Below are positions 13,259 to 21,739 of a stretch of DNA of 54,876 nucleotides, in pieces. Position 1 is the first letter of the stretch. Each line of letters begins with the position of its first letter. The DNA is from Campylobacterales bacterium (GTDB lineage Bacteria; Campylobacterota; Campylobacteria; Campylobacterales; Sulfurimonadaceae). Position numbers and translations under genes: made by a program. The stretch covers positions 1 through 54,876 of the forward strand of contig JACUTT010000010.1 of NCBI GenBank assembly GCA_014859655.1, given 5' to 3'. The notes below the pieces were generated by a model. It searched no databases. It was given only the letters and a program-made list of their open reading frames with translations, and was not told where the DNA came from.

Positions 13259-13579
13259 ATGGAAAATATTATATTTTTAAGCTTTTCACTTTTATTTTTA
13301 ATCCTGGTCTCAGTCCATGTTTATATAACAAATGCTTTTTTTAGACGCTTGCAGGAGAATCATTCAGAAGTGTGGGAGAGTCTAGGACAGCCCCGATGGA
13401 AGATCCATTTCGGTGATGAGAGTTTTCAGCAGGCGATGAAATACATCCGTCAAAAGAAGTTTACTGATCTGAACGATCCGGTGCTGGAGGGGTATTTTAA
13501 GAGGATAAAACGCGTCGAGTATGCGGCTTTGGCCTTTGCTGTAGCAATCATAGCCATCACCCTGGCCGATGTCTCTTAG
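13259..13579 (+). CDS. Small two-helix membrane protein, UspB-like topology
   Basis: A 106-residue protein of unknown function. An N-terminal transmembrane segment (residues 3-22) is followed by a polar loop with WKIHFGDESFQQAMKYI and a second transmembrane segment at 85-103. The arrangement and the central KYI...F.DL.D pattern recall E. coli UspB, but identity is too low to name it. ATG 13259 has no clear ribosome site; GTG 13244 in frame is an alternative. It lies alone between ppsA (divergent) and the end of the molybdoenzyme operon (convergent, 4-base overlap). Confidence 0.6.
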   Translation: MENIIFLSFSLLFLILVSVHVYITNAFFRRLQENHSEVWESLGQPRWKIHFGDESFQQAMKYIRQKKFTDLNDPVLEGYFKRIKRVEYAALAFAVAIIAITLADVS

Positions 13580-14076
13580 AAGAGAACCGGTTCGAGATCT
13601 TCTTTAGGGTCAAACTCCTCAAAATCGGCCACAATGCGGTCAAACATCTTTTTTGTCTTCTCTGCTTTGAGCGTGTAGCCCTCAAAGATATACTTCGAGG
13701 CCGGAAAACTTTCACCAAGCTCCTGATAGATCGACAAACGCCCGTTGATATGTTTTGAAAACTCTGCAAACGCGGTGCGCAAAAACTCTTTTGTCGTCGT
13801 GTGGCGCATCAGCGACTTGATCATACGCTTTCGCTCTTTGATCGGAAGGGACTCGTCGATCGCTTCGGCCACACGCTTGATGTCAAGACGCGAGAGGTAA
13901 ACACCGGCATGCGCAGGTCCGAGCAGCTTGTCTGCGAGTTCATCTACAAAAGCCGGTGCCTCTTCTTCTCCCTGTTCTTCAGCATCAATCTGTTTTTGCT
14001 CTTCATTGATACAGCGTTCCGTGACAAACTTGTCAAATTCTGCTTTCAAATCGTCCAGGTTGTTAAAATCTTTCAT
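13576..14076 (-). CDS. Unknown soluble protein, last gene of molybdoenzyme operon
   Basis: A 166-residue protein I do not recognise. It has an acidic Glu-rich stretch near residues 30-45, is predicted all-helical, has no signal peptide or membrane segment and no cysteine cluster (a single Cys near 22). Its start overlaps the AroE-like gene by 14 bases, so it is translated with the operon. Position suggests a role in assembly of the molybdoenzyme, but nothing in the sequence proves that. Confidence 0.6.
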   Translation of the reverse strand: MKDFNNLDDLKAEFDKFVTERCINEEQKQIDAEEQGEEEAPAFVDELADKLLGPAHAGVYLSRLDIKRVAEAIDESLPIKERKRMIKSLMRHTTTKEFLRTAFAEFSKHINGRLSIYQELGESFPASKYIFEGYTLKAEKTKKMFDRIVADFEEFDPKEDLEPVLF

Positions 14077-14872
14077 TATTGCTTCCTTTTATCCAGATAG
14101 TGTAATACACGCGTGCAAGCACCTTTGCGTACTGCTCGTTGTTTATGAAATTTGCCCCATATGCTACCGCATACTCGCCTAAGCTGCTCTCGCTTTTGAG
14201 GTCTATCAACAGCGCCTCTTTTTGAATGTTTATCAGCTTCGGCGCACTTGGAGTGGCATTGAAAAACGCATCAAAAGAGGAGAGGTCAATTGCTTCGCCT
14301 TCAGCAGCCCGGTCGATGTCCACATCTATCCCCTCGAAAGAAGCGCCAAAATCCTGAACAAGCTTCAGGCAGGACTCGACTCTGTCATTAAAAAAGACCA
14401 GCTCTTTCACACCGCTCTCTTTTAGGTGCAGAACAAGAGATCTTGCTACTTTTCCGGAACCGAGAACGGCAAGCCTCTGCGCGCCATGCTCTTTTAGAAC
14501 TTCGGCCACCGCACGTCCTGTTGCGACCTCGCCGTAGAGCTCTTTATTTTTGACAATGATCGTATCGCAAAAACCGCAGGTCTCTACCTCGTCGCTCTTG
14601 TATCCTAACTGTTCAAGCACGCCTTCAACATACTCGGCTCCCAGCGCAACGCCATTTAGTTTTGCTTCTTTGAGCGAGTTGATGGTGAAGTAGATATCAT
14701 CGGGTCGGATGTTCATTGGAATACACATCGCGTTGTCGCCCTCTTCTTTGAAGCGGCGGTTCAGCGCTGCACTGAAACGGTTCTGCTGGGCATACTCAGC
14801 CAGGAAGCCAAAGAGAAGCGACTGGGTGTCGATCTCGTTGGCGTCATTCATCGGTGCGTTAAAACTGCTCAT
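14063..14872 (-). CDS. Shikimate-dehydrogenase-like (AroE-fold) accessory protein
   Basis: A 269-residue protein with the two-domain AroE layout. The nucleotide-binding loop reads LAVLGSGKVARSLVLHLKESG near residue 130, followed by FFNDR and FFNATPSA, all AroE-like. The N-terminal substrate site is altered: where AroE has NVTxPxK, this protein has CIPMNIRPDD, so the catalytic Lys is missing and shikimate reduction is unlikely. It is embedded between the ferredoxin and unknown genes of a molybdoenzyme operon, suggesting a recruited role such as a maturation or pterin/nucleotide-binding factor (inference). ATG 14872 starts one base after the ferredoxin stop. Confidence 0.72.
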   Translation of the reverse strand: MSSFNAPMNDANEIDTQSLLFGFLAEYAQQNRFSAALNRRFKEEGDNAMCIPMNIRPDDIYFTINSLKEAKLNGVALGAEYVEGVLEQLGYKSDEVETCGFCDTIIVKNKELYGEVATGRAVAEVLKEHGAQRLAVLGSGKVARSLVLHLKESGVKELVFFNDRVESCLKLVQDFGASFEGIDVDIDRAAEGEAIDLSSFDAFFNATPSAPKLINIQKEALLIDLKSESSLGEYAVAYGANFINNEQYAKVLARVYYTIWIKGSNNERF

Positions 14873-14873
14873 T

Positions 14874-15968
14874 CTATTCAATCCCCCATAATTCTTTGGC
14901 TTCTTCTTCTTCAAGACGGCAGCGGTAACAGGTCACTTCTCCGCCGCGGTAGGTGAAGTAGTTGTCGCACTCGTGGCAACGGCGGATGGTGAATTTTATC
15001 AGCTGCTTCACTTCCGGTTCAAAAAACTGTTTCAGATCAAAGGTCCCAGCCAGCGTGATCGAACCCGGTTCGCAGACATCATGGCACAGATGGCACTTGA
15101 CGCATAAAAAGGGATCAAAGTCGATCTTGGAGTTTTTCATATCCGAAGTAAGCGCTGCTGTCGGGCAGATGCGGTAGCACATCTGACACGCCGTGCAGCT
15201 CTGCTCGTCGAGCTTCTTCATACTGGTAAAGGAGAGCTCTGAGGCATTTATCACATGGTACTGCGACGGCTTGGGTGCGCGTTTTAGTGCCGTAAAAAAG
15301 ATCTTCCGTCTATCCGGTACGCTCTTTTCTTTCAGTCGCGCAATGTCTTTGGTAAAGACCTCATGACGCAGCTCTTCATCGAACTCGACCTCGACCCGGC
15401 GCTCAAAGTCGTGCTTCGCCCTGGCAGCATTTTTAAGGTTGATGTACCTGAAAAACCCGCGTCTGTCATCATTTGCTTCGAGGCTTTGAGGCTCATACCT
15501 TAAGGCTTCGATCTCAACACGCTTAGGCGACTCTATCGCTTCTAGGATAAAGTTTGCCTCTTCGATATTAGCATCGATCTTCGGCTTGAGTTTCCCTGCA
15601 ATCTCGCAGCCCTCACAGTGTCCGATATCACAGACTATCTTCTCTTTTAAAAGTGCCAGCGAGGTCAGATGTTCTACCGACAAGGCAGCGATACACGGTA
15701 CATTCTTCTTGCACGAAAGCAGGCTCTCATCGCTTTGGACAAAATCAAAAAAGAAATTTGTCGGATTGAAGTCATCCAGCGAAAAAGCCTCCGTAGGGCA
15801 AACAGAAACACAGCCGCCACAGCCCACACACTGGGACATATTAAAGGCAGGCAGATGGTTTTCGATGGTGACAATATCTACCGGACAGACATCAACGCAG
15901 TGGGTACACTCGGATGACTTGCCAAGGGCGCGTACACACCGGGTAGGATCTAAAGTTAAACCCGCCAT
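14874..15968 (-). CDS. Ferredoxin-domain protein with four iron-sulfur motifs
   Basis: A 364-residue cytoplasmic Fe-S protein. Two 4Fe-4S motifs lie near the N-terminus (CTHCVDVCPVD, CVGCGGCVSVCP), a central region has further cysteines (CDIGHCEGC), two more clusters follow (CTACQMCYRICP, CVKCHLCHDVC) and the C-terminus has a zinc-ribbon-like CHEC...CYRC pair. No signal peptide. Such multi-cluster proteins accompany Tat-exported molybdoenzymes as assembly or electron-supply factors. It sits 8 bases after the TorD-type chaperone gene. Confidence 0.78.
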   Translation of the reverse strand: MAGLTLDPTRCVRALGKSSECTHCVDVCPVDIVTIENHLPAFNMSQCVGCGGCVSVCPTEAFSLDDFNPTNFFFDFVQSDESLLSCKKNVPCIAALSVEHLTSLALLKEKIVCDIGHCEGCEIAGKLKPKIDANIEEANFILEAIESPKRVEIEALRYEPQSLEANDDRRGFFRYINLKNAARAKHDFERRVEVEFDEELRHEVFTKDIARLKEKSVPDRRKIFFTALKRAPKPSQYHVINASELSFTSMKKLDEQSCTACQMCYRICPTAALTSDMKNSKIDFDPFLCVKCHLCHDVCEPGSITLAGTFDLKQFFEPEVKQLIKFTIRRCHECDNYFTYRGGEVTCYRCRLEEEEAKELWGIE

Positions 15969-15976
15969 GGCGTTTT

Positions 15977-16594
15977 CTACGCTGCCTTACTAGAAGACAG
16001 GTACTCATTATCCGCAAGAATAAACTCCAGGGCCATCTCCGCTGCATCATAATAGATAGGGGTGCGCGCCTCGTACTTGACATTGATCAAGTACATCGGT
16101 GCCCATGCCAAAAGATGCTTGTTCAGAAATGTCTTTTGTGCAAATTGCAGATGCTCTACAGCCTCTTTGTCTCCTGCGTTTTCTGCGGCGATTTCGGCTT
16201 CAATGAGATAGTGCATAAACTCCAGTTCAATACCGATATGATCCGCAGAAATAGCTCTGGCCTTGCCAAAGTCGACAAGGTAATCAAACTCATGGTACAT
16301 CGTCGTCACCGGGTTAGCTCCGCCTGTTTCTATCATCTGATCTTCGCGGGTATAAAATGTCTCGTAAGGAACAAGATGTAGCAAAGAGATATTGGCAAAG
16401 TCGACATTCAAATGCTCATCAAGAAGGGTTTTATTGTCTTCTGTTTCAAGAACTTTCCACTCCTTTAGGCTTGGAAAAAGCTCTCTGACAGCCTGATCGT
16501 TCAAGATCATATTCAAGATCTCATCATCAAGCTCTTGAAGCAAAATACGAGATAAAAGTGCATAAATATTACTACGTGCCTGTGTTTGTTCCAT
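15977..16594 (-). CDS. TorD/DmsD-family molybdoenzyme chaperone
   Basis: A 205-residue all-helical protein of the TorD family (redox-enzyme maturation proteins), which bind the Tat signal of a molybdoenzyme and hold it until cofactor is inserted. Typical features are RSNIYALLSRILLQELD at the N-terminus, LVPYETFYTRED, and HIGIELEFMHYLIEAE (the E-x3-M-x2-L pattern of this family). Placed directly after the large catalytic subunit, whose Tat leader is the expected client. A hairpin at 16702-16725 lies in the gap between them. Confidence 0.85.
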   Translation of the reverse strand: MEQTQARSNIYALLSRILLQELDDEILNMILNDQAVRELFPSLKEWKVLETEDNKTLLDEHLNVDFANISLLHLVPYETFYTREDQMIETGGANPVTTMYHEFDYLVDFGKARAISADHIGIELEFMHYLIEAEIAAENAGDKEAVEHLQFAQKTFLNKHLLAWAPMYLINVKYEARTPIYYDAAEMALEFILADNEYLSSSKAA

Positions 16595-16701
16595 AAAATA
16601 TTCCCTCTGAATAATTGTAAAAACTATCGCAAATTATTATCTGCGATTATAGTAAAAACAGCTTAATGTGGCGTTAGTTTGAGAAGATAACCAAAGAAGG
16701 T

Positions 16702-16725
16702 AAAGAGGAAGAAATCTCCCTCTTT
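16702..16725 (-). terminator. Hairpin between catalytic subunit and chaperone genes
   Basis: On the minus strand two 10-base arms (AAAGAGGGAG / CTTCCTCTTT, one G-U pair) flank a 4-base loop 26 bases after the catalytic subunit's stop. No strong U-tract follows, so it more likely lowers read-through or protects upstream mRNA than ends transcription fully, giving more enzyme than chaperone. Confidence 0.55.
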
Positions 16726-16750
16726 TTGATATAAATAACTCCGAAGGGTG

Positions 16751-19700
16751 TTATTTTATTTTTACTCTGTAGGCAGTCTCTGAAAGAGGCACCCATGGGC
16801 GTTTGATGAACTGAGGTCGACGCCATTTATTCGTTGCATTAAGAGGTCGCGTAAGCTCATCTCTCCATGCTCTGTAGACGCCAAGGTTGTTCTCATAGTT
16901 GACAGAGATGTCACCGATCTTGTCACCCGGCTGGGCTTTGGACAGGATAACTTTTTGGTGCCAGCAGTGCATGCCCGAAATAGGATCCGGGTGCGGCGCT
17001 GCCACAGCATTTTGCCATGAACCTGAAAGACCATCCCACCAGATGTTATCAGAGTCTTTGTTGTAGTCTGCAAAACGCTCAGATTTGAAAGGAACGATTC
17101 CCTGGGTATATTTAAGTCTACCCTCTTTACCGTCCATCTGAAGCTCAGCAGTCGGTACGCCGAAACCGTTGATACCCGTTGTGCCTGAATAATCTTCGAT
17201 CTTGATCTGCGCGCCTTCAGCCCCTGCATTCAGAGGTGATTCTGCCATAAATGCCGGATCGTTCATATTGCGAGCCGCCACACTTGGAGCCACCTTCCCG
17301 TCACTGACACCGTTAGGAATAGTAACGGAGTTGACAAGTTTCCAACGGCCGCCGTGGTGTGAACAGGCCAGTGTACCCGGAAGTACACCCTCCGTCGGTA
17401 CTGCCATAGCAACAAAATAACCTGAACTCAGGCCTGAAAGCGAATCCACAATCTCTACACGAATAGCATCACCGCGTTTGAAACCTTGACGAGCAGCATC
17501 CCCGGTCGAGATCCAGATCGGATCGTGATTTTGCGAGATCTCCATCAGGTGCTTGGAGTTGGCCGAACGCGTATGGATATTGTACGGCAGACGGAAGACC
17601 GTATTGAGTGCGTACGAGTTCTCCTCCGTCATATACATATGATTGACATGAGAGACGATCTCCGGCATGTTCTTCTTCTCTTCCTCATCACGAGGATAGA
17701 AAGGAATCGCATACTCAGGCCATTTCCACTCATCAGAGGCAAACCACTCAGAGAAGAAGTCAAGCTTCTTGTCCATCGTAGCAAAACCTTCCATCTTTTT
17801 ACCGTCGATCTCAATACCGATCGGCTGTTTGCCGTTGGGGTATTTCCATGCATCGCCGTGGGCATCAACACTCATTACGCCGGTGCGCTTGTCTGTGTGG
17901 ACATGCGATTTGTCATATTTATGCCCGTGAACTGTTAAGCTGTTGGCATCCTCTTTGAGTTCGCGCTCTTGCGGAGAGTAGATGTGGTTCTCTTCCATCC
18001 ATGCGCCATGATCTCTCATGTAATCATAGACGGGGAACTCAGAACCTTTATATTTCGGATCCTGAGTTGCTGTACGCTTGAGGTTTGGAAGGTTATCTCC
18101 AAATGCCGCATCATACCATTCAGCAATCGTTACCGGTTTGCCTGGATGGCGTTTTGACTCCCACATAGACTTGATGGTCTTAGTCTTAGAGGCGTCAAGA
18201 TAGAGCTCACCTTTTGGATCGATGTAGTTAACACACATATCGAACCAGAACTCATTCTCTTCCCATACTTCGCCAAGGCCTGCTTTGATGTGCGCCTCAA
18301 GTGTAGCACGGTTAGGATTGTTCGGCTTCCAGCCCGCTTTTTCAAGCGCAACACGCATAACCGGCTGACGGAAAGAGGTCCATCGTGCCGGCATAGTCGC
18401 TTCGGAGTGCTGATCGTGACGCTCTCCCGCAAGTCCGACAGGAAGAACATAGTCAACATACCAGTTAGTCTCAGACCAGACAGGAGAGAGGTTGAAGGTA
18501 AGCTCCATCTTACTCTCGTCTTTAAGCACTTCCAGCCAGCGGAAACCGTCCGGATTGATCCAGACCGGGTTGTACATACGCGGAATCCAGACAGCAAGCT
18601 TGGTAGGAACATTAAGCCCCTTGTTGATCCACTTTTGCTGCCACTGCGTATCACTTAGCAGGTGCGGCAGAAGGTAAGACATCTCGTAGGTCGAAAGAGG
18701 CCATTCAGGAGGCCATGTAAGCTCATTCCAGACATCAACTTTAGGCACCGCAGAACCGCGTGAACCTTGACCGACCGTCGCAGAACCGCCCTTGCCGCCG
18801 ACAGAGATAACGTGCCAGTAGTGGAAGAATGTACCGCCCTTAGGACCGATAGCGCCACGAAGACCGAGTGCGAGATAACCCGTACGTCCCGAAACCCAAC
18901 CACCGCGGTTACCCGCAGCTGCTGCGCGCCAGAAGTAAGACGAGATAGACTCGCCTGCCCAGATAAACATCTCATACAATTTTTCAAGCTTATAAGCCGG
19001 AACATGAGACTCTTTTACCGCATACTCAAGAGTGTAGGGAGCATAAAGCTCTTTCAACATCTCCATATAGGCATTAAAGTCATTCTTTTTTGGAAGTTCT
19101 GCGATGTAACCTTTTTCTACCATAAACTTCAGGTAGTCTTTGTTGTCCATCATCACTTCCCAGTTAAACCACTTCTTCACAAAGGCAGTATTGACCTGGC
19201 CTTCTTGAAGCATTCGCTGAACGAGATAGAGGTAGATAGTCGGTTCAGTACCCGGCCAGGCTGCAATCCAAAGGTCTGCCATACCGGCAGAGTTGGACAG
19301 ACGCGGATCCATAACAACCATCTTTGCGCCTTTTTTACGGGCATCAGCAATGTGACCTGCTGCTTGTTGGAAGTAGTGGCCCGCATCGGCTGCGTGAGAC
19401 GAGTTAAGGAAAACAAGTTTCGCATTCGCCCAGTCCGGAGAGGTGCGGTCATCATTTGCCCACTGGATAGTCGGTGTTCGACCGCCCGATGAACAGATAT
19501 TGGTGTGCGAGTTGAAGGCGTCTGTGCCCAGTGTCTGCCACACCTGACCTGTAAAGCCGTTCTCATTTGGACGGCCGACGTGGAACATAACAGACTTTTT
19601 GGAAAGCTCATCGCCTTTTCGAAGCGTGTCGCCCATCTTCTTGCCGATGGCCGTCATCGCGTCATCCCATGTTACACGTACCCATTTGCCGTCACCGCGC

Positions 19701-20188
19701 TTAGAACCCGGGGCTCTTTTGATTGGGAAGGCAAGACGATCCGGATCATACATCTGAGACTGAACCGCATAGCCCTTGGCACAGTTACGTCCGCGAGAAC
19801 CCGGGTGAAGCGGGTTACCCATATATTTTTTAACCGTGAAGGTCTTTTTGTCAATCCACGCTGTAAGACCGCATGAGGCCTCGCAGTTTGAACATGCCGT
19901 CGGTACGATGGTAAAGTCGTTGACATAGATACCGTCCGGATTCTCTTCTGACTGAACACCTTTACGGTCGATACCGCCGCGTTTCCAGTCGTTTCCGTCA
20001 AGTTCTTTGAAATCTTCCCACTGGTCCAGTGGTGGATAAAATGCCAAAGAATCAGGTGTGTTTGTGAACTTGCTCTCATTGAGAGACTCAGCCAGAACAT
20101 CAGTACTGATTACATTCTTAGCGATTGCAGCGCCTGCAATAGTAAATGCAGCGCCTTTTAGAAATGATCTTCTATTTTCTAAAAACAT
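16751..20188 (-). CDS. Large Tat-exported molybdopterin oxidoreductase catalytic subunit
   Basis: An 1145-residue DMSO-reductase-superfamily enzyme. The leader NRRSFLKGA (residues 5-13) is a twin-arginine signal, so it acts in the periplasm. A [4Fe-4S] motif uses Cys 99, 102, 106 and 136 (C-x2-C-x3-C...C); Cys 232 in TNICSSGGR is the probable molybdenum ligand, as in Psr/Ttr/Arr-type enzymes rather than Ser-type DMSO reductases. It is much longer than PsrA/PhsA (about 760) and closer to TtrA-type lengths. With the NrfD and four-cluster subunits upstream it forms a quinone-linked complex. Whether it reduces or oxidises a sulfur, selenium, arsenic or other substrate cannot be told from sequence. 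Confidence 0.9.
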   Translation of the reverse strand: MFLENRRSFLKGAAFTIAGAAIAKNVISTDVLAESLNESKFTNTPDSLAFYPPLDQWEDFKELDGNDWKRGGIDRKGVQSEENPDGIYVNDFTIVPTACSNCEASCGLTAWIDKKTFTVKKYMGNPLHPGSRGRNCAKGYAVQSQMYDPDRLAFPIKRAPGSKRGDGKWVRVTWDDAMTAIGKKMGDTLRKGDELSKKSVMFHVGRPNENGFTGQVWQTLGTDAFNSHTNICSSGGRTPTIQWANDDRTSPDWANAKLVFLNSSHAADAGHYFQQAAGHIADARKKGAKMVVMDPRLSNSAGMADLWIAAWPGTEPTIYLYLVQRMLQEGQVNTAFVKKWFNWEVMMDNKDYLKFMVEKGYIAELPKKNDFNAYMEMLKELYAPYTLEYAVKESHVPAYKLEKLYEMFIWAGESISSYFWRAAAAGNRGGWVSGRTGYLALGLRGAIGPKGGTFFHYWHVISVGGKGGSATVGQGSRGSAVPKVDVWNELTWPPEWPLSTYEMSYLLPHLLSDTQWQQKWINKGLNVPTKLAVWIPRMYNPVWINPDGFRWLEVLKDESKMELTFNLSPVWSETNWYVDYVLPVGLAGERHDQHSEATMPARWTSFRQPVMRVALEKAGWKPNNPNRATLEAHIKAGLGEVWEENEFWFDMCVNYIDPKGELYLDASKTKTIKSMWESKRHPGKPVTIAEWYDAAFGDNLPNLKRTATQDPKYKGSEFPVYDYMRDHGAWMEENHIYSPQERELKEDANSLTVHGHKYDKSHVHTDKRTGVMSVDAHGDAWKYPNGKQPIGIEIDGKKMEGFATMDKKLDFFSEWFASDEWKWPEYAIPFYPRDEEEKKNMPEIVSHVNHMYMTEENSYALNTVFRLPYNIHTRSANSKHLMEISQNHDPIWISTGDAARQGFKRGDAIRVEIVDSLSGLSSGYFVAMAVPTEGVLPGTLACSHHGGRWKLVNSVTIPNGVSDGKVAPSVAARNMNDPAFMAESPLNAGAEGAQIKIEDYSGTTGINGFGVPTAELQMDGKEGRLKYTQGIVPFKSERFADYNKDSDNIWWDGLSGSWQNAVAAPHPDPISGMHCWHQKVILSKAQPGDKIGDISVNYENNLGVYRAWRDELTRPLNATNKWRRPQFIKRPWVPLSETAYRVKIK

Positions 20189-20201
20189 TTAACAGGCCTC
20201 C

Positions 20202-21101
20202 TTAGCTCATACTTAATAATTGTGGAATCACTAGCCATACGTGTTTACTTACCCACAGACCTGCCAACGCAGATACTGAAGCCAAGGCAAGAAGGCTTGT
20301 TGATTTGTTGGTTACACTCAGTGCAACAAGGACCATAGGAACGATAAAGGCGAAGATCTGGCCTATCCAGAACATTGTTGTATATTCGCCGTTTCCTTTG
20401 ATAAACTCTAGTGTAGCTGCTACCTCTTCGGCTTTCATTGCGCCAAAGATATATTCGCTCATATAAAGAATAAATGCACCAAAGGCCGAAAGACCCAGGA
20501 TGATAGCAAGATCGCGTTTTGCTTCATACGGAAGTTTTCCGCCGATAAGAAGCGTTGTCGCCGAACCTGCCAGCAATGCGGCAAGAATCATCTGTGCTGA
20601 CTCTGTCGGCATCTGCCACAGTTCTCTCGCTGATGACTCCGCCATAAGACCCGCTGTATAAAGCGTAACAGGAATGCCGACAACGACCGTCCATATCAAG
20701 ATCTTGTCAAAGAGCGCATTGTCTTTCTTGATGAAAGAGGCATAGGCCAAAAAGAAGATCAAACCGACATATATTGTTGCCATCCATGCACCGACAGTGA
20801 TCGCCGACATCCAGTGAGGGTGGAAAAAGATATGCCAGAATCTGAACATCTGGTGCAAATCGATAACCGTAAAGAAAAGAAACAGGTGAATAAATACGAT
20901 TGACACCACCGTCAATGGAAAACGAAGATATGCGGCTTCGTTAGGGTACTTCTTAAGCAGGTAGAAAAGGATAAAGATAACACCTGTCCCGATGCTCTTC
21001 GCCCACATATTCATAGTTATGATCCATCCCCATACGATACCCGGAAGGGCTACGTCTAGAGTTACAACTGCATTCGTTGCTTCAAGTGCTATTGCATGCA
21101 T
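20202..21101 (-). CDS. NrfD/PsrC-type membrane anchor and quinone-site subunit
   Basis: A 299-residue polytopic membrane protein with about eight hydrophobic helices, starting GIVWGWIITMNMWAKSIGTG and containing WHIFFHPHWMSAITVGAWM. These match the NrfD/PsrC family that anchors molybdoenzyme complexes and exchanges electrons with the quinone pool. Start codon overlaps the upstream ferredoxin stop (TAATG), and the catalytic subunit starts 13 bases downstream, a typical B-C-A order. Confidence 0.88.
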   Translation of the reverse strand: MHAIALEATNAVVTLDVALPGIVWGWIITMNMWAKSIGTGVIFILFYLLKKYPNEAAYLRFPLTVVSIVFIHLFLFFTVIDLHQMFRFWHIFFHPHWMSAITVGAWMATIYVGLIFFLAYASFIKKDNALFDKILIWTVVVGIPVTLYTAGLMAESSARELWQMPTESAQMILAALLAGSATTLLIGGKLPYEAKRDLAIILGLSAFGAFILYMSEYIFGAMKAEEVAATLEFIKGNGEYTTMFWIGQIFAFIVPMVLVALSVTNKSTSLLALASVSALAGLWVSKHVWLVIPQLLSMS

Positions 21102-21739
21102 TAGTGGTGCCCTCCTACTGGTAGATGCGTTATATTTGTAAAGAGACTGTGACCTTCTGGACGTACTGATGCAAGCGGGTTAAGTGTTACGTTTCCGCCG
21201 CCGACATAGTAGTGATGAGGGTCTGTCCCTTTTTCAGGTTTACGTACCTGGACATTGCCCTGGTGCTCCATAACATAGCGGCTGATGTTTGATGCAGGAT
21301 CATCCATATCACCGAAGATGTTGGCTTCGACCGGACAGGCAACAACACACGCAGGCATAAGGCTAGACGCGATACGGTGCGCACAGTATGTACATTTGTC
21401 TGCTGTCTGTGTTTCGGGATCGATATAGATTGCACCGTAAGGACAGGCCATAACACAGCCGGCACAGCCGATACAACGCTCTTTGTCTATGTTTACGATG
21501 CCGTTTTCAATATAGTGTAATGCACTTACAGGACAAATACGCTCACAAGGAGCATTCGCACAGTGGTTACAACGTAATGGAGTAAATGTTCGCTTTGTCT
21601 CCGGAAAGACACCGACATCTACATACTTAACACGAAGACGCCATGTACTCAATGGCACCTCGTTTTCAACTTTACATGCGATTTCGCAGCCCTTACATCC
21701 CATACAGAGGTGTAAGTCTACTAAGAAGCCTAACTGCAT
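21101..21739 (-). CDS. Four-cluster ferredoxin subunit (PsrB/NrfC/DmsB type)
   Basis: A 212-residue electron-transfer subunit. Four cysteine groups are visible: CMGCKGCEIAC, CNHCANAPCERICP, CIGCAGCVMACP and CTYCAHR...CVVACP, the standard arrangement for four [4Fe-4S] clusters. It carries electrons between the catalytic subunit and the NrfD anchor; it has no own signal and would travel with the Tat-exported subunit. First gene of the operon; GGAGGAG lies just before ATG 21739. Confidence 0.93.
   Translation of the reverse strand: MQLGFLVDLHLCMGCKGCEIACKVENEVPLSTWRLRVKYVDVGVFPETKRTFTPLRCNHCANAPCERICPVSALHYIENGIVNIDKERCIGCAGCVMACPYGAIYIDPETQTADKCTYCAHRIASSLMPACVVACPVEANIFGDMDDPASNISRYVMEHQGNVQVRKPEKGTDPHHYYVGGGNVTLNPLASVRPEGHSLFTNITHLPVGGHH

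Follow-up and report, generated by a model that had tools for sequence, protein, structure and literature searches.

A conserved, largely unstudied molybdoenzyme family in the Sulfurimonadaceae and its separable set of helper genes

Several described enzymes of the complex iron-sulfur molybdoenzyme (CISM) type resemble one another in their subunits. PsrABC and PhsABC (W. succinogenes, S. enterica) combine a MopB catalytic subunit, exported by the twin-arginine translocation (Tat) system and carrying a Cys ligand to molybdenum (Mo), with a four-cluster B subunit and an NrfD anchor (PsrC). TtrABC possesses a long catalytic subunit (TtrA, 996–1021 amino acids (aa)) and is encoded as ttrBCA in Hafnia, while ArrAB and ArxAB also have the Cys ligand, with an arx gene order of ArxB2-A-B1-C-D. 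In Acidianus, the sulfur reductase SreABC has accessory genes D and E behind those of its three subunits. SoeABC consists of a cytoplasmic MopB subunit, an Fe-S subunit and an NrfD-like anchor (PMC8076601). I describe here a seven-gene locus from a 54,876-nucleotide stretch of DNA (hereafter the window; contig JACUTT010000010.1 of assembly GCA_014859655.1, a Campylobacterales bacterium of the Sulfurimonadaceae). It encodes an enzyme with subunits B, C and A, and four helper proteins: a TorD-type chaperone, a polyferredoxin (Fd), an AroE-derived protein and a protein without recognised family (Unk). This enzyme family is real, conserved and largely unstudied, under a generic label; its B-C-A core has very probably been noticed in papers already. 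The locus proteins are conserved at 60–88% identity across many genomes, which rules out chance for the seven-gene observation.

The original prediction, made from the letters of the window, had placed A in the Psr/Ttr/Arr-like group, with a Tat leader and a Cys ligand. MopB domains and phylogeny support this placement, the leader is present (RRSFLKG), and C232 stands at the Mo-ligand column, with C99, C102, C106 and C136 for the FS0 cluster. The locus thus encodes together a MopB subunit with FS0, a four-cluster subunit and a membrane anchor, as in a CISM. As had also been claimed, A is far longer than PsrA/PhsA (1145 against 757–813 aa), although about 40 of its residues, near 960–1000, are an insert of the window lineage; members of the other half of the family have 1090–1121 aa. 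Scores of A against the PhsA, TtrA and Arr/Arx models (126.7, 50 and 68.9 bits) are far below the respective cut-offs of 694, 1750 and 1600. For B, which carries Fer4 domains, the models for TtrB and ArrB score best, with TtrB as the top NCBIfam match (202 bits, below the cut-off of 416), and C matches PF03916 (40.6 bits, cut-off 25.8). The AlphaFold model of A had a mean predicted local distance difference test score (pLDDT) of 49.6 and was not used.

In a tblastn search against plasmids, Thermomicrobium roseum, Rhodococcus jostii RHA1 and several haloarchaea were found to encode full-length relatives of A (34–38% identity); Azoarcus KH32C yielded a further, more remote relative. I then placed A in two quick maximum-likelihood trees (SH-aLRT support only) anchored by PhsA, PsrA-like, TtrA (including Hafnia), ArrA-like, ArxA (ORIO) and DmsA sequences. 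A is inside none of the anchored clades, and groups with the Thermomicrobium, Rhodococcus and haloarchaeal proteins with support of 99–100; of the anchored clades, ArrA/ArxA and TtrA come nearest to it. These proteins also have in common with A a Mo loop, SHTN[IV]CS[SA]G[GA]R, and two His (H265 and H271 in A), found in none of the aligned Psr, Phs, Ttr, Arr and Arx anchors; in one divergent Campylobacterota member the loop reads SHSNVCSAGTR. The sequences thus strongly support A as a member of a separate, uncharacterised clade inside the Psr/Ttr/Arr group. Wells et al. have described an apparently new lineage, to which A might belong, as the sister of TtrA/SrdA (PMC10100899). The Thermomicrobium, RHA1 and haloarchaeal relatives have no Tat leader, and with them B and C are encoded as one fused protein. 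The KH32C protein is outside the signature clade, and has neither the signature and His residues nor the third FS0 Cys; on its plasmid, pAZKH (L298), the order is B-C-A-TorD-three hypotheticals-ferredoxin, by arsA/arsB and a PhnD/histidine kinase/sigma-54 trio.

The locus therefore differs from PsrABC/PhsABC in the length of A (300–380 aa longer), its clade and the residues round its Mo loop, as well as in the B-C-A order and the dedicated helper tetrad. With TtrABC it shares the Hafnia gene order, the long catalytic subunit and a B closest to TtrB, but A is outside the TtrA clade and TtrSR is absent here. ArrAB/ArxAB are on the same larger branch of the tree and have the same ligand, and the KH32C relative possesses arx-like regulators; in contrast, A forms its own clade, there are no ars genes at the locus, and the arx order differs. 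SoeABC, compared by its published description, is similar in subunit plan and proposed function, and the leaderless relatives of A resemble it in their sulfur context and in where they probably reside, whereas the Campylobacterota form is Tat-exported and not cytoplasmic. The likeness to Acidianus SreABC, compared by gene content, is in the extra accessory genes.

A is present in 46 of 60 near relatives of the window genome, including practically every member of its family, and in 28 of 200 genomes sampled across the phylum, belonging to several Campylobacterales families. In the latter sample members score 1890–2220 bits, and every other molybdoenzyme less than 100. PhsA above its cut-off is found in 52 of the 200 genomes and full-length TtrA in 33, in both cases in none of the 28 with A; shared ancestry may lie behind part of this exclusion. 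A link of A to Sox thiosulfate oxidation was rejected, as SoxB occurs in 16 of the 28 genomes with A and also in 14 without (partial matches counted), and so was a role as substitute for a SUOX-type sulfite dehydrogenase, since 16 of the 28 encode both. On a Sulfurovum mangrovi plasmid (L292, 7600–11200) the seven-gene order is kept, but A is split over two frames and unannotated, which would mean either that the gene has decayed to a pseudogene or that the sequence contains an error.

The four helper genes follow A closely. Fd is present in 42 of the 46 near relatives with A and in none of the 14 without: in 34 it is beside A, in eight on another contig, and in four, mostly incomplete or fragmented genomes, it was not found. 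In the phylum sample all 28 genomes with A have Fd, against two of 172 without A, both fragmented and of genera that otherwise carry A. The B-C-A-TorD-Fd-AroE-Unk order recurs in other families, with the last two genes retained in homologous loci. Neither of the outcomes named beforehand as refuting the original prediction, a place for A in a characterised clade or the absence of these two genes, was thus observed with the anchors and loci compared. In Sulfurimonas proper, however, TorD-Fd-AroE-Unk form a compact, intact operon unlinked to B-C-A, so that the predicted seven-gene operon, complete in the window, is not a fixed one. Linked to A or not, the four genes accompany it as one conserved set that can be separated from B-C-A. 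This is as expected of a maturation module, and suggests that they mature A. Gene pairs resembling von Willebrand-type (BatA/BatB-like) proteins adjoin the tetrad in several lineages (L177, L179, L205; judged by eye).

Relatives also possess a second, type-II-like molybdoenzyme locus (L174, L175, L176), encoding a rhodanese-like protein, a catalytic subunit of ∼966 aa, a beta subunit of 374–383 aa, a gamma-like protein, TorD and an Fd paralogue; upstream of these are Mrp and a paralogue of Unk. Its catalytic subunit is of another family and no NrfD anchor was seen there, but its TorD, same-plan ferredoxin and Unk are distant homologues (28–38% identity) of those of the tetrad, which supports a role of the latter in molybdoenzyme assembly.

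Among the helpers, TorD (PF02613, 60.1 bits, cut-off 22.2) and the four-cluster ferredoxin with its zinc-ribbon-like end (Fer4 matches, terminal CxxC...CxxC) are as originally predicted. Fd possesses five further Cys (86, 92, 113, 118 and 121) between two ferredoxin pairs, also found in homologues, in an arrangement that I take to recall FlpD/MvhD-type domains; a full-length homologue is encoded in Azoarcus KH32C (1e-28). The AroE-like label agrees with a match to Shikimate_DH, below the curated Pfam cut-off, but alignment to 2hk9 reveals that the motifs VPFK and NTD, with the catalytic Lys and Asp of shikimate dehydrogenase, are replaced, and to judge from these residues the protein is no working dehydrogenase. 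In 15 Sulfuricurvum-type loci it is only ∼148 aa long, comprising the N-terminal domain with IPMNIRxDD and a short tail; the NADP-binding Rossmann domain is gone, so that dehydrogenase activity is impossible there. No family match was found for Unk, in agreement with the earlier claim. It is modeled, with moderate confidence, as all-helical (pLDDT 73.5, predicted TM-score (pTM) 0.64), and a fold search against the PDB returned nothing reaching an E-value of 0.001. The AroE-derived protein and Unk are two kinds of helper for which I found no description in the literature.

The neighbours of the relatives offer a hint to function. In RHA1 the A relative is near genes for TusA, DsrE and a metallo-beta-lactamase (MBL)-rhodanese protein; in two haloarchaea it adjoins a rhodanese and a TauE/SafE exporter, and in Thermomicrobium a CsoR-type repressor. 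Mrp/NBP35 Fe-S carriers follow it in three loci outside Campylobacterota. Genes of the TusA/DsrE/rhodanese/TauE type serve sulfide and persulfide detoxification ending in sulfite and thiosulfate, and such neighbours in aerobes argue for oxidation over respiratory polysulfide reduction. I therefore tentatively favor B-C-A as a quinone-linked sulfur-compound oxidoreductase, the oxidative direction being the likelier, that is matured by its own set of helpers; both the substrate and the direction of the reaction are inferred.

In such an enzyme, A and B would be on the periplasmic side and trade electrons with menaquinone at C. The substrate would be a sulfur compound, with sulfite converted to sulfate, or persulfide/polysulfide to a more oxidised form, and the electrons would be passed to quinone, as by the cytoplasmic SoeABC. 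The tetrad would serve the maturation of A in the cytoplasm: TorD may protect the leader and aid cofactor insertion, and the polyferredoxin may provide or reduce Fe-S centres ahead of export. Enzyme-specific assembly, with no metabolic role, could be the task of the AroE-derived protein and Unk. A wider proposal concerns an unrecognised CISM family, Tat-exported in sulfur-oxidizing Campylobacterota and leaderless in aerobic actinobacteria, Thermomicrobia and haloarchaea. Its members would oxidise a sulfur intermediate and reduce quinone, and the Campylobacterota form would need a new assembly pathway of polyferredoxin, AroE-derived pseudoenzyme and helical Unk; this is conceivable but doubtful.

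A number of observations count against sulfur oxidation by B-C-A. The sulfur neighbours belong to relatives of 34–38% identity without a Tat leader, which may have a different substrate, and no sulfur neighbours were seen at the A-relative locus of Natrinema halophilum. SUOX-type proteins (SorA/SoxC family) in 16 of the 28 genomes with A leave less need for another sulfite dehydrogenase. The trees include no certain SoeA, SreA or SrdA anchor, the co-occurrence counts ignore shared ancestry, and the genes near the locus in the window, hisD and phosphoenolpyruvate (PEP) synthase, are uninformative on substrate.

The published polysulfide reductase (PSR) label is a strong rival. Han and Perner assigned a PSR homologue to every sequenced Sulfurimonas, close to that of Sulfuricurvum, with the S. 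autotrophica homologue close to that of Nitratiruptor (PMC4584964), a distribution that resembles that of A. The published psrA/psrABC of Sulfurimonas, Sulfuricurvum and Nitratiruptor is thus very probably B-C-A, to judge from the distribution. In this respect the claim of an undescribed gene set very probably does not stand, while it does for the helper module, of which I found no description. The label implies a periplasmic polysulfide or sulfur reductase, in which C would take electrons from menaquinol and A would use them to turn polysulfide into sulfide, H2 or formate being the donor; the tetrad would mature the complex. Consistent with this are the PsrABC-like subunit plan, the best scores of B against TtrB and ArrB, the expression of psrABC by Black Sea Sulfurimonas (PMC9122950), and the mention, in PMC10045233, of an isolate of Sulfurimonas in which sulfur reduction was proposed to depend on a periplasmic psrA1B1CDE set. 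However, A is outside the PsrA/PhsA clade and without its active-site neighbourhood, so that the tree gives no support for the psr name; its relatives come from aerobic actinobacteria, Thermomicrobia and haloarchaea; and it is missing from genomes with PhsA above cut-off or full-length TtrA. Taken together, I regard polysulfide reduction by B-C-A as possible, if somewhat unlikely. Sulfurovum indicum has four psr genotypes, in which there is no Tat motif and the conserved Cys is at 171, 247, 183 and 195 (PMC10045233); A, with its Tat leader and C232, is not one of these.

Another oxyanion (arsenite/arsenate, selenate, tetrathionate or thiosulfate) is an improbable substrate of the enzyme. While ArrA/ArxA and TtrA are its closest anchored clades, and the distant KH32C operon has a similar accessory ferredoxin, arsA/arsB and a trio like that of arx regulation, the catalytic subunit of that operon is the one outside the signature clade, without the third FS0 Cys. 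No arsenic or selenium genes were seen beside the closer relatives, and near-universal presence in Sulfurimonadaceae suits a core energy substrate more than arsenic. Likewise improbable is that TorD-Fd-AroE-Unk is a general molybdoenzyme/Fe-S assembly operon, adjoining B-C-A in some lineages only: its separate location in Sulfurimonas proper and the TorD, Fd and Unk homologues accompanying another molybdoenzyme would fit, but that locus has its own diverged paralogues (28–38% identity), and the true Fd orthologue tracks A almost perfectly, being missing where A is absent though other molybdoenzymes are plentiful.

Many marine redoxclines and vents are dominated by Sulfurimonas and its relatives, whose psrABC transcripts are taken as signs of sulfur reduction (PMC9122950). 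Such inferences change if psrABC encodes a separate enzyme that is probably oxidative, as in the reading favored here. The accessory set moreover offers two candidate new molybdoenzyme maturation factors, one of them a shikimate dehydrogenase derivative whose chemistry appears lost, together with its cofactor domain in Sulfuricurvum.

All seven open reading frames (ORFs) were found on the minus strand at their predicted positions, and those between 21739 and 16751 confirm the B-C-A order. The spacing, predicted to be tight throughout, is so within B-C-A and within TorD-Fd-AroE-Unk, but not between these modules. The hairpins in the intervening gap are consensus matches only, of which the region contains 15 against 8.1 expected. 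The AroE-like gene probably starts at the ATG, 1 bp past the Fd stop.

Table 1. Features of the molybdoenzyme locus, in window coordinates.
Feature	Coordinates	Strand	Description
B	21739–21101	minus	212 aa; electron-transfer subunit; 16 Cys in four groups for four [4Fe-4S] clusters
C	21101–20202	minus	299 aa; NrfD-type membrane anchor; ∼8 hydrophobic segments; predicted quinone site
A	20188–16751	minus	1145 aa; Tat-exported molybdenum catalytic subunit; MopB domains
Gap A/TorD	16595–16750	minus	156 bp, separating the two modules; terminator-like hairpins (consensus matches) at 16725–16702 and 16647–16626
TorD/NarJ-type chaperone	16594–15977	minus	205 aa; PF02613 (Nitrate_red_del)
Polyferredoxin (Fd)	15968–14874	minus	364 aa; four Fer4-type Cys groups, CxxC...CxxC end
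AroE-derived protein	14872–14063	minus	269 aa from ATG 14872; ORF-list start TTG 14914
Unk	14076–13576	minus	166 aa; predicted all-helical; without family or fold match

The window is one contig (C29) of an 85-contig, 2.17-Mb genome; genes for SoxB and for two molybdoproteins of the SUOX type (SoxC/SorA family) are on contigs C51, C20 and C11 of this genome. Its nearest named relatives are of the Sulfurimonas and Sulfuricurvum types and are nearly all metagenome-assembled genomes, some bearing other labels, such as Arcobacter sp. NORP14. Lastly, another genome (locus L300, genome G086) encodes a TtrA-like protein (1155 aa) in which a stretch close to the N-terminus resembles a ferredoxin.

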